DNA of 64,000 bases from Fibrobacter sp. UWB11 (GCF_900143015.1 NZ_FSRT01000003.1:310001-374000), one strand, 5' to 3'; positions 20,884-37,701 are shown, numbered from the stretch's first letter. The notes: generated from the sequence alone by a model not told the origin. A program made the numbers and translations.

Positions 20884-20931
20884 ATTAAATTTCTCCTTTT
20901 TAAACACTCTAGATATTTTCCTTTTTTAATT

Positions 20932-22989
20932 TCAGTTCTTGACACAACGGACAGAGTAAGCGTTATCCTTAAAACCATCACTAAAAGAATCAATTCCATC
21001 ACTTGCAATCATAATACTGTAGGCGTGAAAATTCCTTTCTGCATTTTCTGTAGAAGTCCAAAGGTAAGCCGTACTACCAACAACATCATACGTGCCACTG
21101 CGATACAAAAAGCCACCCGGCAAAGCAGAAAAACCATAATCATCAGTACTTTCAAAATAAAGCCAACCTGCTATTGACTTGAGTTTTTTACCAGCAGTTT
21201 CCCAGCCTCCAACAGCCGTTATCAAAGTTTGCCAATCTGTTGTATCTGGCAAATGCCAACCTGCAGGGCAAACTCCCTGCACCGCGTATTTCGGCGAGCA
21301 CATAACGCCATAGCCACAGCCTTTTGCACTATCGCTCCACACGCCAGCGCTATCCATCGCAGCAGACCAAGTATAAAGGCGACCATATTTTCCACAATAA
21401 CTGATGCTATCGTTATAGCAATAACTGTTATCCGTTTTGTAATTCAGATTTTCAGCCATCCAAATCTGACTGCCAATTTTTACAGTCTTGTAAGTCCGTC
21501 CATCACGAGAATCCGTCAAGGTGCCATAAATTTCTTCTGGTCCATTTTCGCCATCCTTGAGGCAACGGATAGAAATTCTGGAATTTTTATCATGGCAACC
21601 TATTTCCGTAGAATCAGAAGCGCCAATCAAACTCATACTATTCGCACAAACATCTAACTTTTCAGATGAACTCCAAAAATACGCAAACGACTCGACCTCG
21701 CTAACGTCAATACTATCATAGCTAGCACGAATTGCAGAAAATCCATAAGCATCCGAGCCATTGAAACCATCGTTCCAACCATTAGTAGACTTTAGCACTT
21801 TACCAGCTATCGAATCACCGCCCACAGCCGAAACAAGTTCTCTCAACTCAATATCCGTAGGCAAATGCCAACCAGAGGGGCACGCATCTAAAGCAGCAGA
21901 CCAATCGTAATTGCGACCATATTTAGTACAGTTGGAATCCTGATCTTTATAGCAATTACTGAGTTCTGTTTTGAAGTTCAAATTTTCGGCCATCCAAACC
22001 TGATTGCCAATCTTTACGGTCTTGTAAACTTGTCCGTCACGTTCGTCGGTAAGTTCTCCATATTCGCACGTGTCCGTGCTATCGGTTTTGCAAGGAGTCG
22101 CAGCAACAACGCCATTAGACCCTTCGGCTCCGCTCAGGGTGACACCAACATTCTCAATCTGTTTTTCGAACGACGGGATTTCATCGGTGTATCCCCAGCT
22201 TTCGATGTTCTTGCGAATGGAATCAAGCTTACCACTCGTCGTTGCAGCAACAGCCCAATTTGCAATTTCTGTTTTTATCTCGCTATCATTCCATTCACCG
22301 TCTTCAGCAAAGTCATCGGCAAACTTCTCCAAGCGTTTCACAAGTACACCCACATCTTCATCTCCCTGCAAAAGAATACTCACCGCCAAAAGTGCCGCAT
22401 TTTCTTCGTCTTTTTCAAAGATATTCAATTCTTCGAATTTGAGATTTTCGTCCATCGCACTCGCCATACCGAACGACATGAGGACTTCTTTTTCGGCTTG
22501 CGCCTTCGCCTCCGCAAAAGACATTTCTTTATCAGCAGCAAGGTTCATCACGCGGTCATATTCCAAATGAGTGAGCACGTTGACGTTTACGTTCTTGCGG
22601 TCTTTGAGGTTTGTAATCGTCCGAAGTGTTATCTTATCCGCAGATTTCACTCCTGTAACTTCGTTGAGGTAGTATCCGGAAATTTCAAAAACGGCACATG
22701 GCGAAGACAAGTTTATACTTGAAACATCATAGTCGCCCTTGTCACTCTTGACCGTACTTTCAAAACGTTCGCCTGTCAGTTCCATCGTCTTACAGTCAAT
22801 CCCCTGCACAGTCACGGCAGAACCTTTAACAAACGGTCCTTTTTGTGTAACGCCCGCTACGTTCAAATCCGCGATAATTCCCGCATCTTCTGTAGTGCCG
22901 CCAGCAGTTTTATCGCCGTCGGAACAAGCCCAGAACAGGGAGACGAATATAAGAGTAAACAGTTTATTCCATTTCATACGCATTTCCAT
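20932..22989 (-). CDS. FISUMP lipoprotein, two domains
   Basis: 685 residues (ATG at 22989; 22983 and 22977 are also possible). Signal with lipobox FWAC near residue 22. The conserved N-terminal domain of this cluster follows: AGIIADLNVAGVTQKGPF, a beta-rich part, then a helical part with NVNVLTHLEYDRV, AALLAVSILLQ and LDSIRKNIESWG (to about residue 285). Two FISUMP domains follow (about 305-480 and 490-685), each with QVYKTVKIG-like start, CPSGWHLP / CPAGWHLP, FWSSSE / LWTSTE and a final SIRCL / SVRCV motif. The linker before the first domain includes the repeat-derived VTLSGAEGS. Third of four FISUMP genes in module A; 28 nt behind the previous one. Confidence 0.9.
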   Translation of the reverse strand: MEMRMKWNKLFTLIFVSLFWACSDGDKTAGGTTEDAGIIADLNVAGVTQKGPFVKGSAVTVQGIDCKTMELTGERFESTVKSDKGDYDVSSINLSSPCAVFEISGYYLNEVTGVKSADKITLRTITNLKDRKNVNVNVLTHLEYDRVMNLAADKEMSFAEAKAQAEKEVLMSFGMASAMDENLKFEELNIFEKDEENAALLAVSILLQGDEDVGVLVKRLEKFADDFAEDGEWNDSEIKTEIANWAVAATTSGKLDSIRKNIESWGYTDEIPSFEKQIENVGVTLSGAEGSNGVVAATPCKTDSTDTCEYGELTDERDGQVYKTVKIGNQVWMAENLNFKTELSNCYKDQDSNCTKYGRNYDWSAALDACPSGWHLPTDIELRELVSAVGGDSIAGKVLKSTNGWNDGFNGSDAYGFSAIRASYDSIDVSEVESFAYFWSSSEKLDVCANSMSLIGASDSTEIGCHDKNSRISIRCLKDGENGPEEIYGTLTDSRDGRTYKTVKIGSQIWMAENLNYKTDNSYCYNDSISYCGKYGRLYTWSAAMDSAGVWSDSAKGCGYGVMCSPKYAVQGVCPAGWHLPDTTDWQTLITAVGGWETAGKKLKSIAGWLYFESTDDYGFSALPGGFLYRSGTYDVVGSTAYLWTSTENAERNFHAYSIMIASDGIDSFSDGFKDNAYSVRCVKN
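22118..22145. repeat. Dispersed repeat in a linker
   Basis: GTCACCCTGAGCGGAGC CGAAGGGTC on the minus strand, read in frame as VTLSGAEGS by the 20932 gene. Confidence 0.75.
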
Positions 22990-23017
22990 CTAATGACCAT
23001 TGACCAACCACTACTTA

Positions 23018-25354
23018 CTAATTCTTTATGCAACGGATTGAAAAACCGCTATCCTTGAAGTCACCCGTGTAACCGGTACCACCATAAAAAATTCTGAACG
23101 TATAGCCCAATTGCTTGTCACGCGTATTCTCAGTAATGCTCCAAAAAAAGGCAGTCCGGTCATCAGGAGCGAATTCTGAAAAATCATAATCACGATACTT
23201 ATCCCCAACAGGATACGCCGAAAAACCATAATCATCGGTGCCGTTAGCTTCTTCAAACCAACCGACACGAGAAGCGAGCTTATAGCCAGCTACACTCGCA
23301 TCATCCGAAACTTGGAAAATCAACGTACGCCATTCCGTTGTATCGGGCAAATGCCAACCTTCAGGGCAAATGCCTTGATACTTCGCGGGGAAATTACAAT
23401 TCGTCCGGTATCCACAGAATTGCGGATTTTCGGCATCGTTTGCGAGCTTTATAGAATCAACCGCAGCAGCCCAAGTATAAAGGCGGCCACCAAACTCACA
23501 ATTTTCAGGCTTATCACCATAGCACCAATTTCGCTTCAAAAGGCTCGGAGTATTTACACTATCCGCATAATTCAAATTCTGGGCCATCCAAACCTGAGTG
23601 CCGATTTTGATGGTCTTGTAAACTTGCCCATCTCGTTTATCCACAATTGAATCGTATTTAATGTTCGGATTCAAGTGATCTTCTTTAGGAATGCTCCAGT
23701 CAATTTCATACGGAGACACAAACGCTTCACCACTGCTACTACTCAAATCAGCATTGCTAGAAGAACTTGATAACGACACAGCAGCCGGTTCATCTCTAAC
23801 GCAACGAACAGAATGGCCATTGTCCTTAAAGCCACATGAAAACCAAACAGAAGCATAAAAGAAGTCTGCGGAACAAGAAGAACGATTATCTTTCGATTCT
23901 TCAGAAGCTGTCCAAAAATGAACATCTCGGCTATCTTCAAAGAAAGATTGATCTCGATACTTTTCGCCAGCAGGGAACGCCGAGAAACCAAAATCATCAG
24001 TACCAGAATCTTCATACATTCCAATATGCGATTCCAGTCTTTCTCCGGCAATATCATCACCACCGGCAAAAGAAATCAGGGTTTTCCACTCGGTCGTATC
24101 CGGCAAATGCCAACCTTCAGGACAAATGCCACGCATCTTTTCTGTAAACACACAAGATTCCCCAAAGCCACATTTCTGAGGCTTTTCGGAATCTGTTGCA
24201 AGCTTCACCGAATCAATAATAGCAGCCCATGTGTACAAACGTCCTGCGACATCACAATTTTCAGATTTGTATGCAAAGCACCAGCTACGTTTCAAAAGAC
24301 TTGGAGTTTTCACACTATCGGCATAATTCAGATTTTGAGCCATCCATACTTGAGAGCCAATCGTCACCGTCTTGTAAACTTGTCCGTCACGGCTATCCAC
24401 AATGGAGTCATACTTTATTTCAGGATTTAAGTACGCTTCCTTAGGAATACTCCAGTCAATATAAAAACCACTATAATTTACTGAAGGATACTTAACAAGC
24501 GCCGTTTCACCGAAGTTCTTTATGAATGATTCAAATGAAGGAATTTCACTTGCAACGCCCCAACTTTCAATATTCTTTCGAATCGAATCAAGTTTACCAT
24601 CGGCAGCGGCATCTTGAGCCCATTTCGCGACTTCAAGTTTTGCATAGGAATCATACCATACGCCACTCTTTGCAAAAAAATCGTTGAATCTTTCAAAGCG
24701 TTCTCCAAGAGGCATGTCATCAAATTCCGCCTGCATCATCACACTTATAGCCAACAATGCCGCATTTCCGTCACCTGCTTCAAAGATGTTCAGGTCTTCG
24801 GCTTCTTCAAAATCACCCTTGATATTGAACGCTGCAAATATTTCTTTTTCAGCCTGTTTTTTCGCATCAGCCAAAGACATCTTGTTCACAGTAACCAAGT
24901 ACATCACGCGTTCGTATTCCAAATGCGTGAGCACGTTGATATTCACGCGATCTCGATTCTTGAGATTCGTCACCGCACGGAGTGTTAACTTTTCGGAAGA
25001 AACCGCTCCTGTAATTTCGCTCAAGTAATAACCAGAGACCTCGAACACGGCGCATACCGAGGACAAGTTAATATCATCGACCTCATAGTCACCACCATTA
25101 CTCTTGACAGTGGTTTCATAAGATTCGCCTGTAAGCTCGAATGTTCTGCAATTAATACCTTGCACAGTCACGGCAGAGCCCTTGACAAATGGGCCCTTTT
25201 GGGCAACGCCTGCCACGTTCAACTCGGCGATGATTCCCGCATCTTCCGTAGTGCCGCCAGCCATGCCCTTATCATCAGAGCATGCCCAAAGCATCGCCCC
25301 GACAATCAGGGTTTCTGCAATTTGGAACCATTTCTTAACCAACCACTTATTCAT
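23018..25354 (-). CDS. FISUMP lipoprotein, two domains
   Basis: 778 residues from ATG 25354, chosen because AGAAGGA lies 5-6 nt upstream. Lipobox LWAC. N-terminal QKGPF domain (about 35-280) with NINVLTHLEYERV and SIRKNIESWG, then two FISUMP domains (about 290-520 and 560-778) separated by a Ser-rich linker (SLSSSSSNADLSSSSGEA). Both domains contain DWSIPKE, YLNPEIKYDSIVD/HLNPNIKYDSIVD, QVWMAQNLNYADSV, GWHLPDTTEW and an SVRCV / SIRCI end. Close similarity of the two domains suggests an internal duplication. No enzymatic motif; a surface binding role is inferred. 50 nt behind the 25405 gene, so in the same operon. Confidence 0.9.
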   Translation of the reverse strand: MNKWLVKKWFQIAETLIVGAMLWACSDDKGMAGGTTEDAGIIAELNVAGVAQKGPFVKGSAVTVQGINCRTFELTGESYETTVKSNGGDYEVDDINLSSVCAVFEVSGYYLSEITGAVSSEKLTLRAVTNLKNRDRVNINVLTHLEYERVMYLVTVNKMSLADAKKQAEKEIFAAFNIKGDFEEAEDLNIFEAGDGNAALLAISVMMQAEFDDMPLGERFERFNDFFAKSGVWYDSYAKLEVAKWAQDAAADGKLDSIRKNIESWGVASEIPSFESFIKNFGETALVKYPSVNYSGFYIDWSIPKEAYLNPEIKYDSIVDSRDGQVYKTVTIGSQVWMAQNLNYADSVKTPSLLKRSWCFAYKSENCDVAGRLYTWAAIIDSVKLATDSEKPQKCGFGESCVFTEKMRGICPEGWHLPDTTEWKTLISFAGGDDIAGERLESHIGMYEDSGTDDFGFSAFPAGEKYRDQSFFEDSRDVHFWTASEESKDNRSSCSADFFYASVWFSCGFKDNGHSVRCVRDEPAAVSLSSSSSNADLSSSSGEAFVSPYEIDWSIPKEDHLNPNIKYDSIVDKRDGQVYKTIKIGTQVWMAQNLNYADSVNTPSLLKRNWCYGDKPENCEFGGRLYTWAAAVDSIKLANDAENPQFCGYRTNCNFPAKYQGICPEGWHLPDTTEWRTLIFQVSDDASVAGYKLASRVGWFEEANGTDDYGFSAYPVGDKYRDYDFSEFAPDDRTAFFWSITENTRDKQLGYTFRIFYGGTGYTGDFKDSGFSIRCIKN

Positions 25355-25404
25355 ACTAATCCTTCTCTTTTTTCCAAACACGAATTAATTTTTATTTGAG
25401 CCTT

Positions 25405-27723
25405 CTAGTTCTTGATACAGCGGACAGACCTTGCATTGTACTTATACGACCAAGCCAATTTTGCATATCTCGAAGAATAATCCATTGCAAGCGCATACCC
25501 ATCATCATGATCGCGACTCACAATACTCCAGAAATACGTCAAACCTCCGGCGTAATCGAAATGAGGATTGATGGAGCGGTCTTCGTCTCGGTAATCATAA
25601 CCACCGGCGGGTAAGGCAGAAAAGCCATACGGATTTTCATAGGATACACCCCAAGCCTCGTTCGCCTTCAACTTTGTAGCAGAACTATCGCCTACAAAAT
25701 TGAGCAGCTCTCTAAATTCCGTCGTGTCAGGCAAATGCCATCCACTCGGGCAAACACCGCGAACTTTCCCTTCAAATTCGCAGACAACTTCATTACCGCA
25801 TCCTTCTCCATCTTTACTGAATTGTGCAGCAGAATCCAGAGCCGCAGACCAAAGGTATAGACGTCCATACTTACCGCACGAATCCGGTTCATTTTTATAG
25901 CAGAAACTAGAAGCCGACCCCGATCTAGTCTTTTGTTCATATGCATAATTCAGATTTTGAGCCATCCAAACTTGATCGCCAATTTTTACAGACTTGTACT
26001 TCTGATTATCGCGATCATCGACAAACTCTCCATACTCAATTGCAGGATTAAGGAAATCGAGTGCCGTTTTTGGAGGTTCCACACTACTACTGCTTTCTGC
26101 ACTAGACGAAGAAGCTACAGAGGAACTAGAAACGGCTGAACCCATGACGCAGCGGATTTGACTCATGCATATTGAGGGAGAAACCGAAGTAAAACCGCCC
26201 CCAGAAATTCCAATAGCATAATACATAGCACCATCGCCATCGAGAGAATCCGTCCAAAAGGTAGAAAGTCCATCATAACGGTCCCAATAACAATCTTCAT
26301 ACTTTTTTGAACTATCCTCCATCAAGGGTTCATAATACGGTAACGTCATGGAAAATCCATATTCATTAGTATATCGGTCCCACACCTTACTAGACGTAAG
26401 TGGACTAATAAGATCCATGTTGTGCTTATTCCATACATAACCGACCAAAGAATCCATTTCATCATACGAAGGAAGATGCCAGCCGTCAGGGCAAACGTTC
26501 ACAGCCTCTTCCCATGTGTAAATAAGTCCATGAACTGGGCAAGATTTTTCAGTTGCAGAAGGGCAAAGTACACTTGATGCATTGGGAGTCGCATAGTTCA
26601 TGCTCTGCGCCATCCAATTTATCCCATCTATTTCTACATACTTATAAGTTTGACCATCACGTTTATCCGTAAATTCACCATAATCAATATTCGGATTCAA
26701 GTAAGCAGTTCTCGGATCCTCGATTGTAGCCGAAGAAGAGGGGCGATTCCCGCTCGAGGCAGGAATGACAGAGCTGCTACTGGATTGCTTCGCTTCGCTC
26801 GCAATGACGTTACTAGAAGAGGATCGGCTTTCACTGCTCAGGATAACACTGTCTCCATCCGCAAGTGCCTTCACGTACGTTTCAAATGCAGGTACAGAAT
26901 CGGTGAGGTTCCAGCTTTCGATGTTCTTGCGGATTGTATCGAGTTTACCGGTAGCTGTAGCGTTTGTAGCCCAGTTTGCAATTTCCGTTTTTACTTTATC
27001 ATCCAATGAACCATTCTGTGAAATTGCAACTGAATATTCATCCAAGCGTTCTGCAAGTTTTGCCTCATTCGCATTTGCCTGCACCATCACACTCACTGCC
27101 AAAAGCGCGGCATTGCCATCGCCCTTTTCAAGGATGTTCAGGTCTTCGGATTCTGCGATACCACCCTTAATGTTGAACGAAGCAAGCACTTCTTTTTCAG
27201 CCTGCTTTTTCGCATCATCAAAGGACATTTTCTGAGCGGTCACCAAGTTCATCACGCGCTCGTATTCAAGTTCTGTGAGCACGTTGATATTTACATGCTT
27301 TCTGTCCTTGAGGTTTGTCAGCGCATGGAGCGTCAACTTCTCAGAAGACTTCTTGCCATTAAGTTCGTTCAAGTAATAACCTAAGACTTCAAACACCGCA
27401 CATGTAGATGACAAAGTAACATTATCAACAACAAATTCACCTTTATCGTTCTTGACAGAGCCTTCAAAAGTTTCATCTGTAAACTTGAGTGTTTTGCAAT
27501 CGATTCCCTGCACTGTCACAGCAGAACCCTTTTCAAACGGTCCCTTCTGCGTAAGGCCGGCCACATTCAAATCCGCGATGATTCCCGCATCTTCCGTGGT
27601 ACCGCCCGCAAAGCCGCCATCATCATTAGAACCGGTGCAAGCCACAACAAAAGCCGAAGCCATTGCAAACGCGATTGTCTGAGCGAGCACGCCCATACTC
27701 TTTCCGAGCACTCTCTTTTTCAT
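25405..27723 (-). CDS. FISUMP lipoprotein, two domains, first gene behind regulator A
   Basis: 772 residues from ATG 27723, which has GAGGA 8 nt upstream inside the end of the regulator gene; the regulator stop is only 4 nt away. Signal peptide with lipobox VVAC. N-terminal QKGPF domain (about 35-285), a Ser-rich linker, a divergent FISUMP domain (about 335-545, ending CMSQIRCVMG), a second poly-Ser linker and a typical FISUMP domain (about 570-772, ending SVRCIKN). The first linker is partly made of two dispersed repeats read in frame (VIASEAKQS and VIPASSGNRP). As the gene coupled most tightly to the regulator it is the most likely primary target of regulation. Confidence 0.9.
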   Translation of the reverse strand: MKKRVLGKSMGVLAQTIAFAMASAFVVACTGSNDDGGFAGGTTEDAGIIADLNVAGLTQKGPFEKGSAVTVQGIDCKTLKFTDETFEGSVKNDKGEFVVDNVTLSSTCAVFEVLGYYLNELNGKKSSEKLTLHALTNLKDRKHVNINVLTELEYERVMNLVTAQKMSFDDAKKQAEKEVLASFNIKGGIAESEDLNILEKGDGNAALLAVSVMVQANANEAKLAERLDEYSVAISQNGSLDDKVKTEIANWATNATATGKLDTIRKNIESWNLTDSVPAFETYVKALADGDSVILSSESRSSSSNVIASEAKQSSSSSVIPASSGNRPSSSATIEDPRTAYLNPNIDYGEFTDKRDGQTYKYVEIDGINWMAQSMNYATPNASSVLCPSATEKSCPVHGLIYTWEEAVNVCPDGWHLPSYDEMDSLVGYVWNKHNMDLISPLTSSKVWDRYTNEYGFSMTLPYYEPLMEDSSKKYEDCYWDRYDGLSTFWTDSLDGDGAMYYAIGISGGGFTSVSPSICMSQIRCVMGSAVSSSSVASSSSAESSSSVEPPKTALDFLNPAIEYGEFVDDRDNQKYKSVKIGDQVWMAQNLNYAYEQKTRSGSASSFCYKNEPDSCGKYGRLYLWSAALDSAAQFSKDGEGCGNEVVCEFEGKVRGVCPSGWHLPDTTEFRELLNFVGDSSATKLKANEAWGVSYENPYGFSALPAGGYDYRDEDRSINPHFDYAGGLTYFWSIVSRDHDDGYALAMDYSSRYAKLAWSYKYNARSVRCIKN
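26745..26809. repeat. Two dispersed repeats in a poly-Ser linker
   Basis: GATTCCCGCTCGAGGC AGGAATGACA at 26745-26770 and GGATTGCTTCGCTTCG CTCGCAATGACG at 26782-26809, both in frame in the 25405 gene. A degenerate third copy may lie at about 26820-26850 (GGATCGGC...CAGGATAAC). Confidence 0.8.
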
Positions 27724-27727
27724 TTTA

Positions 27728-28615
27728 TCAATCCTCATCCCTAACATTTTTATTTGAATTCAAAAAAACTTCCGCATTTTCACTGCGGTCAACGCGGTTA
27801 TCAATCCGTTCACTTACAGGAAATAATTGCAAATTCAATCGGTAAACTTGTTCTGTTTCGTCATCTTCACTCGCTATTGCCACAATGCGACGGCGACAAT
27901 CAGCAAGTTCCTTTTTTATTCGTTCGTAGGCACGGCGCGTAATGCCCATCGTAAGCCCCGACATATCACGTTCCGATAGCGGCAAGTCCAATGCCTTGAC
28001 CGCAAACTCTCCCATTTGGCGCTGCATATCACGAGCCGCCACCGGAACCGCGTCTACATTACCCATCGAAATAGACTTATCCGTCTGGTAATAGTTACCG
28101 CTCTTGTCCTTCTTCAAGAGATTTGCCTTCACCAAAAAGTCCAGCGTTTCAGAAACTTCTGACGCTGAAATATTCGGTTTGCAAGCACGCGCTATTTCGA
28201 GAGGTTTTGCACCCGGCATGTGAGCAGCAAGCTCACGAATCACCGGGTTTTTCCACGATTTGAAGTAATCGAATTCCTCGTTCCCCAACACTCGGACCTT
28301 GTGCGCCATTGCAAGCGCACAACGTTCTTCGAACGCCGATCTCTTCGCCTCGTCGTTTTTTGCATGGGCATAAGAAACCATCAGGACAAAATAATCGTAC
28401 TCAAAGCCGACGAGCCCCATGGCACCGGCAACCGACCCTGCGGAGCCGATGCTCAAATTCTTCTTACCCTCGCAAACGTATTTCAGGTAAATCGGCGACG
28501 TAAAACCAGCCTTTCGAGCGAACTCACGCCACGTAAATGCCGAACAGCGCTTACGTTCATCGTAATAATCCTGGATGAACTTGCGATAATCGGTATATTC
28601 TACGATCTCCTTCAT
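27728..28615 (-). CDS. TIGR02147/DUF4423-family regulator A
   Basis: 295 residues. The N-terminal 60 residues (VEYTDYRKFIQDYYDERKR ... WREFARKAGF ... YLKYVCEGKKNLS) form a helix-turn-helix-like DNA-binding region; the rest matches the TIGR02147/DUF4423 family (YFKSWKNPVIRELA, AKPLEIARACKP, SETLDFLVKANLL, REPEAT-free C-terminal ERDMSGLTMGI). This family is known mainly from Fibrobacter and Bdellovibrio relatives and is poorly characterised. It is the first gene of module A. There is no Shine-Dalgarno; TATATTTG is 5 nt before the ATG, so the mRNA is probably leaderless. GTATTC-type repeats upstream are its likely operators (inference). Confidence 0.9.
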   Translation of the reverse strand: MKEIVEYTDYRKFIQDYYDERKRCSAFTWREFARKAGFTSPIYLKYVCEGKKNLSIGSAGSVAGAMGLVGFEYDYFVLMVSYAHAKNDEAKRSAFEERCALAMAHKVRVLGNEEFDYFKSWKNPVIRELAAHMPGAKPLEIARACKPNISASEVSETLDFLVKANLLKKDKSGNYYQTDKSISMGNVDAVPVAARDMQRQMGEFAVKALDLPLSERDMSGLTMGITRRAYERIKKELADCRRRIVAIASEDDETEQVYRLNLQLFPVSERIDNRVDRSENAEVFLNSNKNVRDED

Positions 28616-28744
28616 GTTTACAAATATAGATACTTTTGTACATTTTAGAATACAGATTTGGCGTTTTTAGTTAAATTTTACCACTTTTGACGTTTTTACA
28701 AAAATTTATGCAATTTAGAATACAAACATGTATTCCAGGAATAC
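28616..28744 (-). promoter_or_regulatory. Promoter and operators of module A
   Basis: Reading on the minus strand: a perfect 15-bp inverted repeat GTATTCCTGGAATAC (28730-28744), half-site GTATTCTAAA (28714-28723), the same half-site again (28644-28653, exactly 70 bp on), and a -7 element TATATTTG (28621-28628) 5 nt before the start codon. The second half-site lies where the -33 element should be. An AAAAACG-TC-AAAAGTGGTAAAAT block between the half-sites is shared with module B. Confidence 0.7.
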
Positions 28745-28775
28745 AAAAAAAAGCCTCACCATCTCTGGCGGGCTT
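28745..28775 (-). terminator. Terminator of module B operon
   Basis: Minus-strand stem AAGCCCGCCA / TGGTGAGGCTT (one mismatch) followed by eight T, 27 nt behind the stop of the 28802 gene. Confidence 0.8.
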
Positions 28776-28801
28776 TCCTTCCTCCCTTTTCCTAACAACA
28801 A

Positions 28802-31216
28802 TTACTTATCGTAGATGGTAATATTTATTCTGGCCCGGAACAGGTAGCCTTCCGCGCCGAGATTGCGGTAATAATCAACAACCGCAAAGACCTCTGCCTC
28901 ATAGCGGAATTTTTCGACTTCTTTCTCGAACCGGTAGAATGTCAGTTCGCCGTCATAATCCGATTTTGTATATTCCGTATATCGCATAGACTCAAGATCG
29001 TCTATGGTGAGCGTTTCCTGGCTCTTCAAGGTAAAGCCGTGCGCTTCCATCATCAAGGCGTATTCATCGGCCTTGGCCTTGGCTTCATCGAAATAGTCAT
29101 CATTACTAGCGCCGACACTAGAACCGAGTCGGGTATAAGCATTCCAAGACGTCCACTTCTGGTCATTCGAATAGTACCTATAATGGTACTGCGTCGAATC
29201 TAAGACAAACTTCAGGTCTTCGGGGATTTCCCTGTACTTGGGAGAATCATAGTCCTTTTTAGTTTCCGTCGGAATCTCGTCAACCCCTTCATCGCGAACG
29301 ACGAGCTTTACGTAGAACATCTTCGATGGCATGGTTATGCCCATCGGCGTCCAAACACGGACCTCGCCCTTCGTAATCACAAGCGTATAGACTTTGCCGC
29401 CAGACGTTTTCGTGTAAACATACGAATCCTCGGTATAATCGTTATCCAGTGAATCATTGGAATACGTCCCCTCATATTCGAAGCCCTTTCCCCCGGCTTT
29501 GTTTATCAGTTCCGTCGCAATGGAATCACACCCGCTTCCAAGCGCAGGACTCTGGCCCCGCCACATAATCTGGGCACCATCCGCATATTCCTTGTACTCC
29601 GTTTTCTTTTCAAGGAAATCCTCGACGAAGGCCAATTCTTCGGGCAAATCCGGCAGGGTGTCCTTTTTAACTTCCACGGAACTTGAAGACGAAGAAACAA
29701 ACGGGCTATAGATGGAACTCGAAGAAGCAACACTCGATGATGAAATATGTATCGGCAAATCTTCGAATCCTTCCTTCATCACGAATATGGCGACATCGAA
29801 CATGAAGGCTCCATAGCCAGCCCCTGCCGGAGAGAGAGTCTTCGTCATCGCAATTTTATAAACGAGATCACCCTTCTTCGCAGAATAGATATAAGACAAA
29901 CTATCATAGAACGAATGCAAATAGAACGATTTCAACGAATCACTCAACATCGTCTTTTCAAAAACAAATCCTTTCGCGCCCAAAGTATCCACCAATGCGC
30001 TCGCGGCAGAATCTCTTGTCGCGGTATCATGGACATTTGCCCAAGATGTACACGTCCACACCCTCTGTTCGCCATCGCCATAAATCACCGGCCCGCGGGC
30101 ACTGCAGAACTCCTCAAAAAACTGAAGTTCTGGAGGGAGCACAGAAAGCGAATCCTGCGAAGCCGATGAATTAAACGGGTTATAGACGGAACTCGACGAG
30201 GCAATACTCGAGGAAGATTCGTCCTTGCCGCTACTCGAACTCGATTCAGGCTCGTCGCCCGGAACATGCCAGCGGCCTTTTTCGCACACAAAGTATTCAT
30301 TGTACAGTTTGCTCAATTTGTTCACATTACGCTTGGTTTCGTTTTCACGCTTGTCATTGCAAACACCGAGACCGTAATTGTTCCACCAGAAGTTCGTCAC
30401 GAACTTTTCAAATACAGGCGCGGAATCTGCATACTTCCAGTTTTCGACATTCTTGCGCACATTTGCGAGCGTTCCCTTGAGATCTGTATCGCAAGCCCAA
30501 TCCGCAATCGCAGTTTTGGTATCGGCATCGTCCCAACTGCCACCTTCTGCAAGTGCAATGCTGAATTCGCCCATGCGTTCGGTAAGCCCAGCCACATCGA
30601 CATCGCTTTGCATCAACACGCTTACCGCGAGGAGTGCTGCGTTGCCATCACCTGATTCGAAGATGTTCAGGTCTTCGGATTCTGCAAAGTCACCCTCGAT
30701 AGCAAACGAAGACAAGATTTCTTTTTCGGCTTGCGATTTCGCATCTGCAATTGATTTTTTCTTCTCGGTCACCAAATACTTCACGCGTTCGTATTCCAAA
30801 TGCGTGAGCAAATTGATGTTCACCGTTTTGCGGTTCGAAAGATCCGTAAGCGCACGAAGAGTCACCGTTCCCGACGACTTCTTGCCAGAGATTTCATCGC
30901 GATAATAGCCATTTGCCTCAAGAATCGCGTACTGCGATTGCAAATTGATGTCCTTGATAGCAAAGTCACCCTTGTCGCTCTTGATAGTTCCCTTGAAACT
31001 TTTGCCTGTTTGCTTGAGCGTAATGCCGTCCAGTTCCTGCACGGTCACCGCAGAACCAGTTACAAACGGGCCCTTCTGCGACACGCCTGCCACATCCAAA
31101 TCCTTGATGGCGTAAACGCCCGCATCACCTGAAGCGCCACCCGCAACATCATTATCGGAACACGCCCAGAACAAAATTCCAAATGCAAAAACTGGTAAAA
31201 TTTTATTCAGCGTCAT
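28802..31216 (-). CDS. Lipoprotein with QKGPF N-terminal domain and a triplicated unknown domain
   Basis: 804 residues from ATG 31216 (AAGGA 8 nt upstream; ATG 31222 is the alternative). Lipobox FWAC. Residues about 25-285 are the same N-terminal domain as in the FISUMP lipoproteins, but no FISUMP domain follows. Instead there are poly-Ser linkers and three related units of about 130 residues (about 360-500, 535-655, 665-804), each starting [LI]-P-x-[ED]-L-x-F and containing a Tyr-rich strand, a D-S/A-rich helix, G-K/H-G-F and a Y-x-x-x-Y segment. I do not recognise this unit. It is the second gene of module B. Confidence 0.85.
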   Translation of the reverse strand: MTLNKILPVFAFGILFWACSDNDVAGGASGDAGVYAIKDLDVAGVSQKGPFVTGSAVTVQELDGITLKQTGKSFKGTIKSDKGDFAIKDINLQSQYAILEANGYYRDEISGKKSSGTVTLRALTDLSNRKTVNINLLTHLEYERVKYLVTEKKKSIADAKSQAEKEILSSFAIEGDFAESEDLNIFESGDGNAALLAVSVLMQSDVDVAGLTERMGEFSIALAEGGSWDDADTKTAIADWACDTDLKGTLANVRKNVENWKYADSAPVFEKFVTNFWWNNYGLGVCNDKRENETKRNVNKLSKLYNEYFVCEKGRWHVPGDEPESSSSSGKDESSSSIASSSSVYNPFNSSASQDSLSVLPPELQFFEEFCSARGPVIYGDGEQRVWTCTSWANVHDTATRDSAASALVDTLGAKGFVFEKTMLSDSLKSFYLHSFYDSLSYIYSAKKGDLVYKIAMTKTLSPAGAGYGAFMFDVAIFVMKEGFEDLPIHISSSSVASSSSIYSPFVSSSSSSVEVKKDTLPDLPEELAFVEDFLEKKTEYKEYADGAQIMWRGQSPALGSGCDSIATELINKAGGKGFEYEGTYSNDSLDNDYTEDSYVYTKTSGGKVYTLVITKGEVRVWTPMGITMPSKMFYVKLVVRDEGVDEIPTETKKDYDSPKYREIPEDLKFVLDSTQYHYRYYSNDQKWTSWNAYTRLGSSVGASNDDYFDEAKAKADEYALMMEAHGFTLKSQETLTIDDLESMRYTEYTKSDYDGELTFYRFEKEVEKFRYEAEVFAVVDYYRNLGAEGYLFRARINITIYDK

Positions 31217-31263
31217 ATTCATTTATCCTTATCATAAAATTAATTTAAGTATTTTCTAAAATT

Positions 31264-33258
31264 CTAATCCTTAACGCAACGGACTGCATAAGCATATCTT
31301 TTATTAAAAGTCGTACTCAAAGCAGCATCGTCATCCATAAAAAACAAATGTATATGGGCAGCGTATCTTTCATTCACTTCTGTCGAAGTCCAAAAACCTG
31401 CAAAACGACCTTCATTTTCATAATCATTAAACTCATCTCTATCACCAACCGGAAGGGCAGAGAAGCCAAAACTATCCGTACCGGCGCCATCATCATTCCA
31501 ACCATTGACAGATTTGAGCATTTTTGCAGCAGTATCTCTACCTCCTACTGAATAGTACAAAGTCATACCCTCGTTTTGCGAAGGCAGATGCCAGCCAGTA
31601 GGGCACGCATTCAACGCCGCAGACCACGTATAAAGGCGGCCATACTTTGTACAGTATTCGGCTGAATCATTATAACAATAACTTTCGTCCGTTTCATAGT
31701 TCAAGTTCTCCGCCATCCACACTTGCTTTCCAATTTTCACGGTCTTGTATTCTTGACCATTACGCTCATCCGTCAACATTCCGTATTCGCAATCATCTGT
31801 ACTTTCCGTCTTGCAGGCAGCCACAGCCGAATCTTCCACAAGAATATAAGATCTCAACGAATCATTTTCACCCTGGACACAACGGACAGAAAACGCATTG
31901 TACTTTCCTTCGTCCATATCCAATGATACTGTATTGAAGTTAGCGCCCACATGCATCACATACGCAAATTCGACTTTACTCTCTGTAGAACTCCAGAAAT
32001 CCGCAAGCCACTCCTTGTTTATGTATTCTCCACTTGCAGACCTACCACCAATGGGAAGCACCGTAAAACCGTAATCATCTGTACCATTGAGATCGTTTAA
32101 CCAACCACTCGTGGACTTGAGTTTACTTCCTGCCATCGCAGAGTCTCCTAATGCATCCACTAAAGTTTTAAAATCAGCCAGAAGAGGCAAATGCCAACCT
32201 TCAGGACAAGCTCTCATCGCAGCATTCCACTCGTAAAAACGTCCATACGTTGCGCAATATTCCACGGAATCATTATAGCAATAACTTTTTTCGGTTTCGT
32301 AGTTCAAGTTTTCCGCCATCCAGACTTGATTGCCAATCTTAACAGTCCTATATGTTTTTCCATCACGAGAATCCGTCATCGTATTTTGCGCAGCATCCGG
32401 CGAATCGGCGCCAAACTTTTCCACATACTTTTCAAAAGCAGGCACTTCGGCAGCAATTCCCCAGCCTTCGACATTTTTGCGGATTGAATCCAGCAGTCCG
32501 TCAGCAGCAGCAGAAACCCATTCCATAATCGCAGTCTTCGTACTGGAATCGCTCCACACGCCTTTTTCAGCAAACGAGTCATCGAACTTGTCCATACGTT
32601 CCACGAGAGCATCAACATCGGCACCGCCCTGCATCATCACGCTCACAGCAAGCAAGGCTGCGTTACCATCGCCCGATTCAAAAATATTCAGGTTCTCAAA
32701 CGCTTCAAAACTGCCCACAATGTCAAACGCAGCAAGCACTTCTTTTTCAGCTTGTTTTTTTGCCTCAGCAAACGACTTTCCCTTTTGGGTCACGAGGTAC
32801 ACAATGCGCTCATATTCTAGGTTTGTGAGAATGTTGACATTCACTTTTTCGCGATTTTCAAGGTCTGTCAATGCGCGAAGAGTCAGCTCGCCATCCGTTT
32901 CCTTTCCAGAAAATTCGCTACGATACTTACCCGTCGCCTCGAACACCGCACACGACGACTTGAGCGAGACGCCTTTCACCGCAAAGTCGCCCTTGTCACT
33001 CTTGACCGTACCTTCAAAACGCTCGTCTGAAAGTTTCATCGTCTTGCAGTCAATTCCGCGTACCATCACCGCAGAGCCCTTGACGAACGGCCCCTTCTGC
33101 GACACGCCTGCCACATCCAAATCCTTGATGGCGTAAACGCCCGCATCACCTGAAGCGCCGCCAGCAACGTCATCGTTCGAGCACCCCGCCAAAAACGATA
33201 CCGCCACAAAAGCCGAAGCCACAAATCCGTTCTTGAAAAATTCGCACACGTTTCTCAT
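31264..33258 (-). CDS. FISUMP lipoprotein, two domains, first gene behind regulator B
   Basis: 664 residues. The ATG at 33258 overlaps the regulator stop by 4 nt (ATGA) and has AGGATGAG upstream. Lipobox LAGC. N-terminal domain (about 30-290: DLDVAGVSQKGPF, VNVNILTNLEYERI, SIRKNVEGWG), then two FISUMP domains (about 300-465 and 480-664) with CPEGWHLP / CPTGWHLP, FWSSTE / FWTSTE and SVRCVQG / AVRCVKD. The first 68 nt of its N-terminal domain region are identical to the 28802 gene. No catalytic residues are evident. Surface binding protein by inference. Confidence 0.9.
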   Translation of the reverse strand: MRNVCEFFKNGFVASAFVAVSFLAGCSNDDVAGGASGDAGVYAIKDLDVAGVSQKGPFVKGSAVMVRGIDCKTMKLSDERFEGTVKSDKGDFAVKGVSLKSSCAVFEATGKYRSEFSGKETDGELTLRALTDLENREKVNVNILTNLEYERIVYLVTQKGKSFAEAKKQAEKEVLAAFDIVGSFEAFENLNIFESGDGNAALLAVSVMMQGGADVDALVERMDKFDDSFAEKGVWSDSSTKTAIMEWVSAAADGLLDSIRKNVEGWGIAAEVPAFEKYVEKFGADSPDAAQNTMTDSRDGKTYRTVKIGNQVWMAENLNYETEKSYCYNDSVEYCATYGRFYEWNAAMRACPEGWHLPLLADFKTLVDALGDSAMAGSKLKSTSGWLNDLNGTDDYGFTVLPIGGRSASGEYINKEWLADFWSSTESKVEFAYVMHVGANFNTVSLDMDEGKYNAFSVRCVQGENDSLRSYILVEDSAVAACKTESTDDCEYGMLTDERNGQEYKTVKIGKQVWMAENLNYETDESYCYNDSAEYCTKYGRLYTWSAALNACPTGWHLPSQNEGMTLYYSVGGRDTAAKMLKSVNGWNDDGAGTDSFGFSALPVGDRDEFNDYENEGRFAGFWTSTEVNERYAAHIHLFFMDDDAALSTTFNKRYAYAVRCVKD

Positions 33259-34109
33259 TTTCTCTCATCCTTATTCAAAACTGTTCCACTTTTATTCAAC
33301 CATTCGCTCATCGGGAACAGTTGCACATTCAAGCGATAAACACGCTCCGTTTCATCTTCTTCCGTCGCAATCGCGACAATGCGCCGATAAAACTCATCCA
33401 CTTCCTTTTTTATCCGTTCGTAAGCGCGATGCGTAAGGCCGAGCGTATAGCCCGACATTACGCGTTCCGAAAGAGGCAACTCAAGTGACTGTATTGCAAA
33501 CTCCCCCATTTGGCGCTGCAAATCGCGAGCCGCCAAAGGCACCGCCTCCACGGGAGCCATCTTAATTGCCTTATCCGTTTGTTGGTAGTTTCCGTTCTTG
33601 TCCTTCTTCAAGAGCTTCGCCTTCACCAAAAAATCAAGTGTCTCAGAAACTTCTGCCGCCGAAATCTTCTGTTTGCAAGCACGCGCAATTTCGAGAGGCT
33701 TTGCACCAGGCATGTGCGGAGCCAATTCTCGAATCACGGAATTTTTCCACGATTTAAAGTAATTGAATTCTTCATCACCGAGAACACGCATCTTGTGGGC
33801 AAGCGCCAACGCACAACGTTCCTCGAACGCGGCACGTTTTGTCTTGTCATCCTTTGCATGAGCGTACGAAACCATCAAAACGAAATAAGTCTGTTCGAAG
33901 CCGACAAGGCCCATGGCACTTGCGACAGAACCCGCAGAACCAACACTCAGGTTTTTCTTTCCTTCGCAAACATACTTCAAATAAACATCCGACGAAAAAC
34001 CCGCCTTTTGTGCAAACATATGCCAAGAAAACGCCGAAGTGCGTTTACGTTCGTCGTAGTAATCCTGAATGTACTTGCGGTAATCCGTATATTCAACGAT
34101 ATCCTTCAT
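33255..34109 (-). CDS. TIGR02147/DUF4423-family regulator B
   Basis: 284 residues from ATG 34109; the frame continues upstream, but 34109 aligns with regulator A (KDIVEYTDYRKYIQDYY) and TATATTTG sits exactly 5 nt before it. The protein is strongly similar to regulator A along its whole length, with most differences in the N-terminal helix region (SWHMFAQKAGFSSDVY versus TWREFARKAGFTSPIY). That is where DNA specificity would be set, and the operators differ accordingly (ATGTTC versus GTATTC). First gene of module B, overlapping the FISUMP gene. Confidence 0.9.
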   Translation of the reverse strand: MKDIVEYTDYRKYIQDYYDERKRTSAFSWHMFAQKAGFSSDVYLKYVCEGKKNLSVGSAGSVASAMGLVGFEQTYFVLMVSYAHAKDDKTKRAAFEERCALALAHKMRVLGDEEFNYFKSWKNSVIRELAPHMPGAKPLEIARACKQKISAAEVSETLDFLVKAKLLKKDKNGNYQQTDKAIKMAPVEAVPLAARDLQRQMGEFAIQSLELPLSERVMSGYTLGLTHRAYERIKKEVDEFYRRIVAIATEEDETERVYRLNVQLFPMSEWLNKSGTVLNKDERK

Positions 34110-34239
34110 GGTTACAAATATAAATGAATTTCTCCATTTTAGAACATAAAATTGGCGTTTTTGCGCAGATTTTACCACTTTTTGAGTTTTTATTAAAAAA
34201 TCGCAAATTTAGAACATGACATACATATTCCTGGAACAT
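34110..34239 (-). promoter_or_regulatory. Promoter and operators of module B
   Basis: Minus strand: imperfect inverted repeat ATGTTCCAGGAATAT (34225-34239), half-site ATGTTCTAAA (34208-34217), the same half-site 70 bp on (34138-34147), and TATATTTG (34115-34122) 5 nt before the ATG. Half-site spacing and distance to the -7 element are the same as in module A; the half-site sequence is not. Confidence 0.7.
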
Positions 34240-34242
34240 GGA

Positions 34243-34267
34243 GATTCCCGCCTTCGCGGGAATGACA
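34243..34267. repeat. Dispersed repeat
   Basis: GATTCCCGCCTTCGCGG GAATGACA; followed by a partial copy (CGCGGGAATGACA, about 34278-34290). Confidence 0.75.
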
Positions 34268-34289
34268 AATAAAAAAACGCGGGAATGAC

Positions 34290-34321
34290 AAAAATTCCCC
34301 GCGACGTTTTTCGTCGCAGGG
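34290..34321 (-). terminator. Terminator of module C operon
   Basis: Minus-strand stem CCCTGCGACG / CGTCGCGGGG with an AAAA-type loop followed by AATTTTTG, just after the stop of the 34344 gene. Confidence 0.8.
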
Positions 34322-34343
34322 ACTCCCCTTACATAAAATTACT

Positions 34344-35815
34344 TTATTCTGCGTCTTTCACGCAACGGACACTTTGTCCATAATACTTGTAATTTTGATA
34401 CGTATAAGTTTGAGTATAAATGTTGTTTATATTGAAATATCGACCATCATCGGCACTGTATTCGGTGGCGCTCCAGTAATAAACATCCGAACCCACCTTT
34501 TCCCAACTAGTTGCAGAAAGCCTTCTTCCGGTCGGAAGTGATGCAAAGCCATATTTATCAGTACCGTTATTGTTAGGCGTTCCGGCATAGTCCCACCCGC
34601 TCAAAGCCTTGAGAGGCTTTCCACACGTACTGTAATCCCCTATAGCCTCACACAACAAACTCCATTCACGGAGTGTCGGCAAATGCCAACCATCCGGGCA
34701 AATTCCCTGAACACTATGATTGAGTCCGCACGTCTTGCCATAACCGCAATCCAACGGTTCCTTCGGATCGTTCGCCAAGGCAACAGAATCGATTGCTGCT
34801 GCCCAGGTGTAATAGCGGCCACCCACATTGCAATTCTTTTCATCATTATTGTAGCACCAGTTGCGGCCCTTCAAGCTCGGAGTCTTGACGCTATCGGCAT
34901 AGTTCAAATTTTCTGCCATCCACACCTGCGAATAATTCGTGTCTGGCACGTCAATTTTCACAACCTTATACACTTGCTTGTCACGCGGGTCGACCATCGA
35001 GTCATATTTGATTTTCGGATTCAGGCGTGCTTCCTTGGGCACATCCCAGCTCCACCCTTCGGTATCACTAGAACTTGAAGAAGGTCTTACCGGCGCAGTC
35101 GAAGGATCCCCTTTGACGCAACGGACACTTTGTCCATAAGACTTGCTATTCTGATACGTATAAGAATTGGTATAAACGTTGTTTATATTGAAATACCGGC
35201 CATCATTGGCACTGTATTCAGTAGCGCTCCAGTAATAAACATCCGAGCCCACCTTTTCCCATTTAGTAGCAGAAATTCTTCTTCCGGTCGGGAGTGCGGC
35301 AAAGCCGTAAAGATCCGTACCGTTGTTGTCAGGCGTTCCGGCGTAGTTCCATCCAGTCAACGCCTTGAGTGGTTCACCAGATACAGGGGCATTTCCTAAT
35401 GCCACGCTCAATAGGCCCCATTCATAGATTGACGGCAAATGCCAGCCATCAGGACAAATTCCCTGCACAGCGCGATCAAGTCCGCACTTTTTACCATAGC
35501 CGCAAACCAACGGTTCCTTCGAATCATTCGCCAAGGCAACAGAGTCAATTGCCGCCGCCCAGCTGTAATAACGACCGCCCACCTTGCAATTTTTTTCTTC
35601 ATTATTGTAGCACCAGTTGCCGCCCTTCAAGCTCGGAGTCTTGACGCTATCGGCATAGTTCAGGTTTTCAGCCATCCACACCTGCGAATAATTCGAGTCT
35701 GGCACTTCAATTTTCACGACCTTGTAAACTTTCTTGTCGCGCGGGTCAATCATCGAATCGTATTTGATTTTCGGATTCAGGCGTGCTTCCTTAGGCACAT
35801 CCCAGCTCCACCCTT
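34344..35815 (-). repeat. 756-bp in-frame tandem duplication of a FISUMP unit
   Basis: Matching landmarks lie 756 bp apart, for example ACATCCCAGCTCCACCCTTC at 35041 and 35797. 756 bp is 252 codons, so the frame is kept. Confidence 0.8.
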
Positions 35816-36680
35816 CGGGGATTTCCTGTGCCACATTGATTTCTTCTATGGCCTTTTCAAAATCGGGAACTTCGTTTGCGAATCCCCAATTTTCCATATT
35901 CTTGCGAATGGAATCCATCACAGCCTTCGCCACGGCGTTTGCAATCCAGTCGATAATTGCTTTTTTCGTATCATCATCATTCCACGTGCCGCTTTCCGCA
36001 AAGGAACCATTGAATTTATCCATACGTTCCGTAAGCGTTTTCACATCGGCATCGCCTTGCATCAGCACGCTTATAGCAAGGAGAGTCGCATCGGCATCGC
36101 TTGTTCCAAAAATATCCAAATCTTCAAATTCGGCCGATTCACCAGCCATCCCGAATGCGGCAAGCACTTCCCTTTCAGCCAAATCCTTCGCCTCGTCAAA
36201 ACTCTTGCCCTTTTCAGTCACATAGTACATCACGCGTTCGTATTCCAAGTTCGTAAGCAAGTTGACATTCACATGCGTACGGTCCTTGAGATTCGTCAAC
36301 GCACGGAGCGTCAATTTGTCAGAGACCTTTTTCCCGGTCATTTCGCTACGGTATTCGCCCGTTACTTCAACAACAGCGCAAGTCGTTGACAAGTTCACTT
36401 TTTCAACAACAAATTCACCCATGTTGTTTTTGACTTCCCCCTCAAAAACCTCGTCCGTGAATTTCATTGTCTTGCAGTTGATTCCCTGCACCGTCACCGC
36501 AGAGCCCTTCACGAACGGGCCCTTTTGGGAAACGCCAGCAATATCCAAGTTCTTGATGGCGTAAAGGCCTTCGCTCTGTTCGTCCGTACCGGCCGTCTTA
36601 TCACCAGAACAAGCCCAAAAAGACGTCCCAAATACAAGAGCCGCCAAAAGATTCCATTTCGTCATTGTTTTAGTGAGCAT
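34344..36680 (-). CDS. FISUMP lipoprotein with a tandem duplicated domain, behind regulator C
   Basis: 778 residues from ATG 36680 (a GTG at 36692 overlapping the regulator stop is the alternative). Lipobox FWAC. N-terminal domain (about 30-285: NLDIAGVSQKGPF, VNVNLLTNLEYERV, SIRKNMENWG). Two FISUMP domains that are nearly the same (about 290-530 and 545-778): both carry GWSWDVPKEARLNPKIKYDS, VPD-NYSQVWMAENLNYAD, CPDGWHLP, YYWSATEYSA and YGQSVRCVK. The DNA repeats with a period of 756 bp. The close match points to a recent in-frame duplication. Surface-exposed binding protein by inference. Confidence 0.9.
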   Translation of the reverse strand: MLTKTMTKWNLLAALVFGTSFWACSGDKTAGTDEQSEGLYAIKNLDIAGVSQKGPFVKGSAVTVQGINCKTMKFTDEVFEGEVKNNMGEFVVEKVNLSTTCAVVEVTGEYRSEMTGKKVSDKLTLRALTNLKDRTHVNVNLLTNLEYERVMYYVTEKGKSFDEAKDLAEREVLAAFGMAGESAEFEDLDIFGTSDADATLLAISVLMQGDADVKTLTERMDKFNGSFAESGTWNDDDTKKAIIDWIANAVAKAVMDSIRKNMENWGFANEVPDFEKAIEEINVAQEIPEGWSWDVPKEARLNPKIKYDSMIDPRDKKVYKVVKIEVPDSNYSQVWMAENLNYADSVKTPSLKGGNWCYNNEEKNCKVGGRYYSWAAAIDSVALANDSKEPLVCGYGKKCGLDRAVQGICPDGWHLPSIYEWGLLSVALGNAPVSGEPLKALTGWNYAGTPDNNGTDLYGFAALPTGRRISATKWEKVGSDVYYWSATEYSANDGRYFNINNVYTNSYTYQNSKSYGQSVRCVKGDPSTAPVRPSSSSSDTEGWSWDVPKEARLNPKIKYDSMVDPRDKQVYKVVKIDVPDTNYSQVWMAENLNYADSVKTPSLKGRNWCYNNDEKNCNVGGRYYTWAAAIDSVALANDPKEPLDCGYGKTCGLNHSVQGICPDGWHLPTLREWSLLCEAIGDYSTCGKPLKALSGWDYAGTPNNNGTDKYGFASLPTGRRLSATSWEKVGSDVYYWSATEYSADDGRYFNINNIYTQTYTYQNYKYYGQSVRCVKDAE

Positions 36681-36688
36681 AATTCTAG

Positions 36689-37549
36689 TCACTCCCCTTT
36701 ATTTTTTGATAACACATTCATATCGCCATATTCAATCTTTTCCGTCAGCGGGAAAAGCTGCATGTTCAAGCGGCAAACTTTTTCAATGTTCTTATCGGCA
36801 GAGACAATCGACACAATGCGCTTGCGGCACTCCGCCAATTCTTCCACCACCTTCTTGTAGCTTTCGGCGGTCATGCCCATCGTGATGCCGCTAAAGTGGC
36901 GTTCCGAAATAGGCAATTTATCCAAAGCGTCAAGCGCAAACTCGCCCATCTGGCGCAACAGCGAATGCACCGCCACGGCCACCACATTCAAATTTCCCGT
37001 CGAAAGCGAAGTACTCGTCTGATGATAATTCCCTTTGATATCGCGAGTCAAAAGCCCAGCCTTGAGCAAAAAGCGCAAGCTATCACTGACATCCGCAGCA
37101 GAAATCGCAGGCTTGCACATTTTGGCAATTTCGTTCGGCTTTGCGCCCGGCATAGCCACAGCCAATTCACGAACAACAGAATGCTTCCAAGTCTCGTAGT
37201 AAGTGTACATCTCGCTGCCGAGAATTTTCACGCGATTCGCTTCACCAAGCGCCTGCATTTCCTCAAAGCACTTCTTCTTTTCCTGTTCCGTCTTTGCTCC
37301 CTCATAACGTACCAGCAAAACGAAGTAATCCAATTCATAGCCAAGTAAGCCCATTGCAAGTGCAGTCTTTTTCGCTCCTTCTTCGCGAAGACGCGTCTTG
37401 CCATCACATACAAGTTTCAGGTACGAACCCGACGCAAATCCAGCCACCTTCGCAAATTCTCGCCACGTAAACGCAGAACAACGCTTGCGTTCCTTGTAGT
37501 AGTCGAGAATATACTCGCGATAGTTTTTGTATTCTGTAACCGTTTTCAT
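36689..37549 (-). CDS. TIGR02147/DUF4423-family regulator C
   Basis: 286 residues, same family as regulators A and B but more divergent (VTEYKNYREYILDYYKERKR ... WREFAKVAGFASGSYLKLVCDGKTRL). Shared blocks include YYETWKHSVVRELA, KPNEIAKMCKPAISAADVSDSLRFLLKAGLL and ERHFSGITMG. First gene of module C; its stop is 8 nt before the ATG of the FISUMP gene. TATTTTTA is 5 nt before its ATG, again without a Shine-Dalgarno. Its upstream repeats are of the ATGCTTAA type. Confidence 0.9.
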   Translation of the reverse strand: MKTVTEYKNYREYILDYYKERKRCSAFTWREFAKVAGFASGSYLKLVCDGKTRLREEGAKKTALAMGLLGYELDYFVLLVRYEGAKTEQEKKKCFEEMQALGEANRVKILGSEMYTYYETWKHSVVRELAVAMPGAKPNEIAKMCKPAISAADVSDSLRFLLKAGLLTRDIKGNYHQTSTSLSTGNLNVVAVAVHSLLRQMGEFALDALDKLPISERHFSGITMGMTAESYKKVVEELAECRKRIVSIVSADKNIEKVCRLNMQLFPLTEKIEYGDMNVLSKNKGE

Positions 37550-37701
37550 GATATTAAAAATAGAAACACTGGATTAAGCATGCAATAGCATTTAATATTT
37601 TTTCAAAAACAAAAATGGCGATTTTAAGCATATTTCAGCACTTTTCAAAAGTGATTAAAGAAAATTCAAAAACATAAAACAAAAATTGAATTCTATAGAA
37701 C
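37550..37701 (-). promoter_or_regulatory. Promoter region of module C
   Basis: Minus strand: TTCTATAGAA inverted repeat (about 37690-37699), ATGCTTAAA (37623-37631), ATGCTTAA (37574-37581) and TATTTTTA (37555-37562), 5 nt before the ATG. An AAAAGTGCTGAAAT...CGCCATTTTTG stretch resembles the shared block of modules A and B. The layout is similar but spacings differ. Confidence 0.5.

Follow-up and report, generated by a model that had tools for sequence, protein, structure and literature searches.

Background

The controller (C) proteins of restriction-modification systems are helix-turn-helix (HTH) proteins that regulate their own promoters, in which operator boxes are repeated, and they fall into separate specificity groups (PMC3874152). 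Contacts between protein and DNA have been identified in the MerR, LacI, NrtR, Rex and Cro families from the mutual information that links HTH residues to operator bases, and they involve residues 1, 2 and 6 of the HTH recognition helix (PMC5045206). A search for the operator or binding specificity of TIGR02147 regulators returned no open-access paper naming TIGR02147; DUF4423 was named in one open-access paper, in a proteome table only and with no operator described, and nothing on the regulation of FISUMP proteins was found in the open-access literature. The operators predicted here, at three regulatory modules of Fibrobacter sp. UWB11 and at their relatives, are the first predicted ones that we are aware of for TIGR02147/DUF4423, and both they and the helix-to-DNA code proposed for them cover one subfamily.

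Results

Regulators and lipoprotein operons in the window

The analysed window, a 64,000-nt stretch of the Fibrobacter sp. UWB11 genome, encodes on its minus strand regulators A (27728-28615, 295 aa), B (33255-34109, 284 aa, ATG at 34109-34107) and C (36689-37549), which scored 328, 353 and 289 bits, respectively, against the TIGR02147 (Fsuc_second) profile (curated cut-off 50) and 103, 96 and 87 bits against the C-terminal domain DUF4423 (PF14394, gathering score 30); the family scores of regulator B were computed from codon 2 onward. A total of 39 TIGR02147/DUF4423 paralogs were found in this genome. A lipoprotein-linked subfamily, hereafter referred to as module-type, was defined by a score above 280 against our A1 alignment profile together with a half-site pair 69-75 bp apart. 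This profile cleanly split module-type regulators (at least 300 bits) from other TIGR02147 proteins (<230 bits), and the module-type set comprised 116 regulators from seven Fibrobacter genomes, with 95 of the 116 exceeding a detector score of 7.2 (15% of shuffles). Regulators A and B belong to the subfamily with a half-site spacing of 70 bp and detector scores of 9.6 and 10.5, while regulator C scored more weakly (7.9).

All 117 module-type regulators examined had an ORF of 150 aa or more behind them (median overlap 4 nt), and a lipobox-like motif was present in 114 of these 117 ORFs. The end of regulator A is overlapped by a lipoprotein gene (25405-27747, minus strand), the first of four extending down to position 19939 and apparently arranged in tandem behind the regulator (19939-27747, minus strand); the end of regulator B is overlapped by a gene for a FISUMP-domain lipoprotein (31264-33258, minus strand). 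Lipoproteins encoded beside TIGR02147 regulators (19939-36692, minus strand, and other loci) often displayed the motif G[TAS][STVAE]x[DE]x[GNS] soon after the lipobox Cys, with instances such as AGGTTEDAG, AGTSEEPN and GTVTDTGNT. The motif was found in 45 of 115 and 18 of 42 lipoproteins (3.0 and 1.1 after shuffling) and is possibly a surface-export or partner signal.

Repeats at promoters A, B and C

Promoters A and B (minus strand) each contained a decamer in two copies, 70 bp apart from start to start: GTATTCTAAA at 28644-28653 (proximal, occupying the -35 position) and 28714-28723 (distal) in A, and ATGTTCTAAA at 34138-34147 (proximal) and 34208-34217 (distal) in B, exactly as reported in a preliminary description of the locus. 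The equal distances to the -10 element and start codon claimed there were likewise borne out, as TATATTTG (28621-28628 and 34115-34122, minus strand) begins 15 bp past each decamer (16 bp if counted to ATATTTG) and is separated from the ATG by 5 nt in both promoters. This element had been termed a '-7 element'; its position stands, and an ordinary -10 box fits at least equally well, given that most paralogs combine TTG(AC) with TATATT at a distance of ~17 bp. Both inverted repeats were also present on the minus strand, GTATTCCTGGAATAC at 28730-28744, the GGAATAC arm of which pairs with distal half-site A across a 6-bp spacer, and ATGTTCCAGGAATAT at 34225-34239, but not at the reported distances of 16 and 17 bp, the actual gap to the distal half-site being 6 bp in A and 7 bp in B (21 and 22 bp when measured between starts). 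Taken singly, each pair was of modest to borderline significance (p ~0.04-0.05 in dinucleotide shuffles of the same upstream region, any spacing of 50-110 allowed).

A third module, overlooked in the preliminary description, has its own pair and a third word in the window, GTTTTTGA at 37603-37610 (proximal) and GTTTTATG at 37673-37680 (distal, 70 bp upstream), both on the minus strand. The helix of regulator C reads S-G-S-Y-L-K, and its word is that of other S-G-S-Y-L-K regulators.

Promoters of the A/B class share a stretch AAAAGTGGTAAAAT...AAAACGCCA between the half-sites (28654-28713 and 34148-34207), which is better conserved than the half-sites themselves and could be a set of phased A-tracts or a site for another protein.

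Conserved spacing and rarity in the genome

Direct repeats of at least 8 bp in the 116 module-type upstream regions occurred 19, 18, 16, 9 and 6 times at spacings 70-74, giving 68 regulator-spacing matches, as compared to mostly 0-3 at adjacent spacings. The peak was repeated in 92 further regulators, nearly all of them from other genomes (16, 14, 13, 5 and 2 matches). A second bump was seen at a spacing of 91-92, as would be expected from the additional forward half-site contained in inverted repeats of the A/B type. Other TIGR02147 subfamilies were rejected as carriers of the same architecture: their 45 upstream sequences displayed no peak at 70-74 bp, only weak repeats at other spacings. 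A detector score of at least 9 was reached by 53% of real, 0.9% of shuffled and 0% of other-subfamily upstreams. The detector has built-in preferences for T at base 2, flanking Ts and a -35 box, and it found no site above threshold in ~18% of module-type upstreams.

When the upstreams of all 39 paralogs were inspected, an identical layout with other words was found in most lipoprotein-linked members, and the comparison with other Fibrobacter strains proposed earlier showed architecture and spacing recurring with other words across the seven genomes. Half-sites across the subfamily included GTATCAT, GTATAAT, GTTGCAT, GTTTCAT, GTACTAT and others, some promoters carrying GTATCAT and others GTTGCATA. 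In one pair of orthologs (L024 and L106, helix S-P-T-Y-L-R), the GTGTCAT pair was spaced at 60 bp in both species, about one helical turn shorter.

The pattern RTRTTCTA-N58-66-RTRTTCTA had exactly two matches in the 3.76-Mb genome, promoters A and B, and GTATMAT-N61-69-GTATMAT had four, all in front of module-type regulators; reversed controls gave 0 in both cases. These genome-wide statements cover the patterns searched. Occurrence of the same repeats before unrelated genes, which would speak against the earlier reading, was checked genome-wide for the paired element and was not observed. Single decamers occurred at background level (11 versus 12 in the control, 13 versus 21), so that they gave no sign of a wider regulon and were discarded as its markers.

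Promoter anatomy across paralogs

Alignment on the proximal half-site revealed that TTG(AC) begins 13-14 bp downstream of it in most paralogs, with a TATATT-like -10 element at 36-37 bp and hence ~17 bp from the -35 box, as in an ordinary promoter. In the A/B class, the -10 element is 25 bp from the half-site, which takes the -35 position itself; both the offset and the distance of 38 nt to the ATG vary little among ~30 regulators of this type across species. The two -10 offsets (25 versus 36-37 bp) are about one helical turn apart. An inverted arm accompanies the distal copy, with a 5-bp spacer in most paralogs and 6-7 bp in the A/B class. At the proximal copy, the same alignment showed no inverted arm clearly above background, and its reading as a full palindrome was rejected. 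Flanking promoter parts (a T-run ahead of the half-site, the -35 and the -10 boxes) were also conserved.

The tandemly clustered regulators with Tyr46/Ser48 (Y-V-S-E-G-R) at loci L152 (G000:C3:141000-160999), L113, L114 and L123 had long leaders separating the promoter from the ATG, and their words included ATTGTGAA. This class would not register in the alignment and was excluded from the code.

Covariation of half-site and recognition helix

Mutual information with the aligned proteins was calculated for 73 proximal half-sites that were in register. Residue 41 with base 3 was the top pair out of 1422 (0.80 bits, with a background from common descent of ~0.4), followed by residue 46 and base 4. 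Proline at position 41 was accompanied by A at base 3 in 38 out of 39 cases, Ser or Gly by T in 12 out of 14, and Ala or Asp mostly by G; in addition, base 4 was G in regulators with Met44 (7/8), and base 6 was C in those with Tyr46 (8/9). Regulator A has P41, I42, L44 and Y46 (codon 41 at 28493-28495, minus strand), and regulator B has D41, V42, L44 and Y46 (codon 41 at 33987-33989, minus strand).

Half-site identity tracks the recognition helix, not overall relatedness. Half-site similarity correlated with similarity of the helix quartet 41/42/44/46 at r = 0.63 and with C-terminal identity at 0.22; the partial correlation between helix and half-site was 0.60, a level which 2000 random residue quartets did not approach (0.37 at most). 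The best three single columns were 41, 46 and 44. In a 150-tip tree built from the C-terminal part, residue 41 changed 13 times and base 3 changed 20 times, with 10 changes on a common branch (p = 3.7e-11, the best of 1856 tests, the next being 1e-4). Among 29 disjoint nearest pairs, the association of residue 41 with base 3 (p = 0.003) was not distinct from that of other columns, the pairs being too few. Both copies within one promoter shift together to the same new word.

Under the proposed code, the variable half-site bases 3-6 would be read by recognition-helix residues 41, 42, 44 and 46, the clearest reading being that of base 3 by residue 41 (Pro for A, Ser/Gly for T or G, Ala/Asp for G). 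Regulator A is then predicted to recognise GTATTCTA sites, and a P41D substitution in A would shift its preference toward ATGTTCTA.

Prediction of half-sites in held-out regulators

The rule was fixed before 60 further regions were examined; 25 loci had been retrieved earlier with their upstreams unseen. A site was detected in 80 of the 92 held-out regulators, and in 56% of these 80 bases 3-6 were all predicted correctly, as compared to a mean of 13% and a maximum of 28% after permutation. Single-base accuracy was 91% for base 1, 90% for base 3, 85% for base 6, 75% for base 4 and 71% for base 5. The 22 held-out regulators less than 85% identical to the training set were fully correct in 27% of cases (permuted mean 9%, maximum 23%). 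Most failures had Met, Thr or Asp at position 46 and mostly used GTACT words (GTACTATA), a class at which two training members had hinted; its omission from the rule largely accounts for the weak result in diverged regulators. D41 (B-type) proteins had ATGTTC in eight out of nine held-out cases, and the ninth apparently uses this word as well, offset in register.

Structural models

An AlphaFold model of the regulator (mean pLDDT 87) has an N-terminal HTH with helices at 29-35 and 43-48; the covarying residues sit in this first HTH, with residue 41 just ahead of recognition helix 43-48. Inside DUF4423, the model also displays a winged-helix-like unit at residues 138-177 (~28085-28204, minus strand, in regulator A), which might serve as a further DNA-binding or dimerisation part. 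A five-helix HTH of the Xre/lambda-repressor type is a candidate assignment for the N-terminus. No Pfam HTH match was obtained for regulators A, B and C, and PDB profile matches to the HTH were weak and fell on Xre-type proteins (3kxa, E = 0.0026; C.BclI, E = 0.09). Structural comparison of the HTH with HigA and DdrO was marginal (VIA-align Z 7.3-8.3), as were the matches of the winged helix to ArsR-, MecI- and MarR-type proteins, and Foldseek gave no match under E = 0.001. The nearest HTH folds listed were, with weak scores, antitoxins and phage-type repressors (HigA, DdrO, Stl).

Discussion

We consider it highly likely that the lipoprotein-linked TIGR02147/DUF4423 regulators, about twenty in each genome, each bind at the promoter of their own gene. 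Autoregulation, put forward in the preliminary description, follows by inference from three observations combined: the putative operator is located at the promoter of the regulator itself, its sequence covaries with that regulator, and the pairs searched for were present in front of such regulators only. We interpret the distal palindrome, together with a proximal copy lacking an inverted arm, as a dimer at the distal site and one subunit at the edge of the promoter. A dimer of the N-terminal HTH would most likely occupy the distal palindrome, ~115 bp upstream of the transcription start (~105 bp in the A/B class), with a further subunit on the single half-site, which abuts the -35 box in most paralogs or replaces it in the A/B class. 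With sites about seven helical turns apart, bound molecules could lie on one face of the DNA and cooperate or loop, and their binding would set expression of the operon comprising the regulator and its surface-type lipoprotein(s). Stoichiometry of dimer and monomer, binding and autoregulation are what we infer from this arrangement of sites; the spacing (about six turns in the one ortholog pair) is compatible with the 70-bp DNA loop suggested earlier.

The earlier proposal that regulator and operator co-evolved after duplication received strong support, as the half-site follows the helix rather than relatedness and shifts on branches of the tree where residue 41 also changes. Gene duplication would preserve the architecture, with joint shifts of helix and half-site parting A from B. 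Alternatively, an inherited architecture could be bound by a shared factor, such as RNA polymerase or a global regulator, with half-site differences reflecting drift along the gene phylogeny. Such a reading draws on the conservation of the flanking T-run, -35 and -10 boxes and on the considerable mutual information due to common descent (~0.4 bits), but the poor tie of half-sites to C-terminal identity (0.22) next to the strong one to the helix (0.63; partial 0.60), the ten branches on which residue 41 and base 3 change together, and the joint alteration of both copies per promoter to the same new word all argue against it. We regard it as very improbable and, in view of the helix correlation and the branch coincidence, set it aside.

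Within the co-evolution of self-acting regulators and operators, the sign of regulation may be either. In the case of an autorepressor, the palindrome-bound dimer and a subunit bordering the -35 box would loop or block RNA polymerase and produce negative feedback, for which we see about even chances: most paralogs have a near-consensus TTG(AC)-N17-TATATT promoter, which should fire unaided, the half-site lies on the -35 position in the A/B class, and the nearest HTH folds include, with weak scores, the antitoxin and phage-type repressors HigA, DdrO and Stl. However, the proximal half-site is mostly upstream of the -35 box, at about -45, which is the usual position of an activator, and the A/B promoters are without a good -35. 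Those same features favour a class-II-like activator, whose proximal subunit would contact sigma or RNA polymerase from -45, or from -35 in A/B; the -10 offsets of 25 and ~36-37 bp, being about one helical turn apart, further suggest a face-dependent contact. Activation is plausible at somewhat less than even chances, the good core promoters of most paralogs having no obvious need of it. Overall, the promoter quality of most paralogs leans toward repression, and the position of the site, along with the lack of a -35 in A/B, toward activation.

The proposed insulation between modules held in part. Judged by their sequences, A, B and C would be insulated, and with binding to own promoters A and B are very probably separated by specificity (GTATTCT versus ATGTTCT). 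As a rule for the family, insulation fails: GTATCAT is the word of no fewer than four regulators in this genome, namely R10, R21, R26 and R27 (loci L010, L021, L026 and L027), and cross-talk is therefore to be expected within that group.

More tentatively, and as a picture we would still rate on the doubtful side, each Fibrobacter genome may harbour ~20 self-regulating surface-lipoprotein operons, generated by cassette duplication and governed by one shifting helix-operator code, forming feedback circuits that are largely separate, perhaps behave as all-or-none switches and possibly each respond to their own lipoprotein or substrate. The predicted operators turn the 'function unknown' of TIGR02147/DUF4423, among the largest regulator families of Fibrobacter, into a testable assignment, and they point to the promoters that would control the multicopy surface lipoproteins in a bacterium of major importance for fibre degradation in the gut. 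They also provide a natural set of well over 100 regulator-operator pairs in one fixed architecture, in which the emergence of non-interfering pairs after duplication can be followed, and the pairing of regulator and word is readable and testable from sequence alone.

With respect to known systems, the N-terminal fold is marginally alike to the HTH of HigA and phage-type repressors, but here a toxin gene is absent and an extra winged-helix-like domain is present. The likeness to C proteins such as C.BclI lies in an HTH with repeated boxes at its own promoter and in a weak profile match. C proteins, however, are short and located beside restriction genes, whereas the regulators described here, at ~280 aa and with lipoprotein genes downstream, do not qualify as restriction-modification controllers; they have a second, winged-helix-like DUF4423 part and, unlike C proteins, occur as multicopy paralogs before lipoprotein genes with a 70-bp spacing of sites. 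Compared to the codes of the MerR, LacI, NrtR, Rex and Cro families, which are mainly cross-species, much of the diversity here is contained within a single genome, and, unlike in those families, the sites were found without prior knowledge of a regulon.
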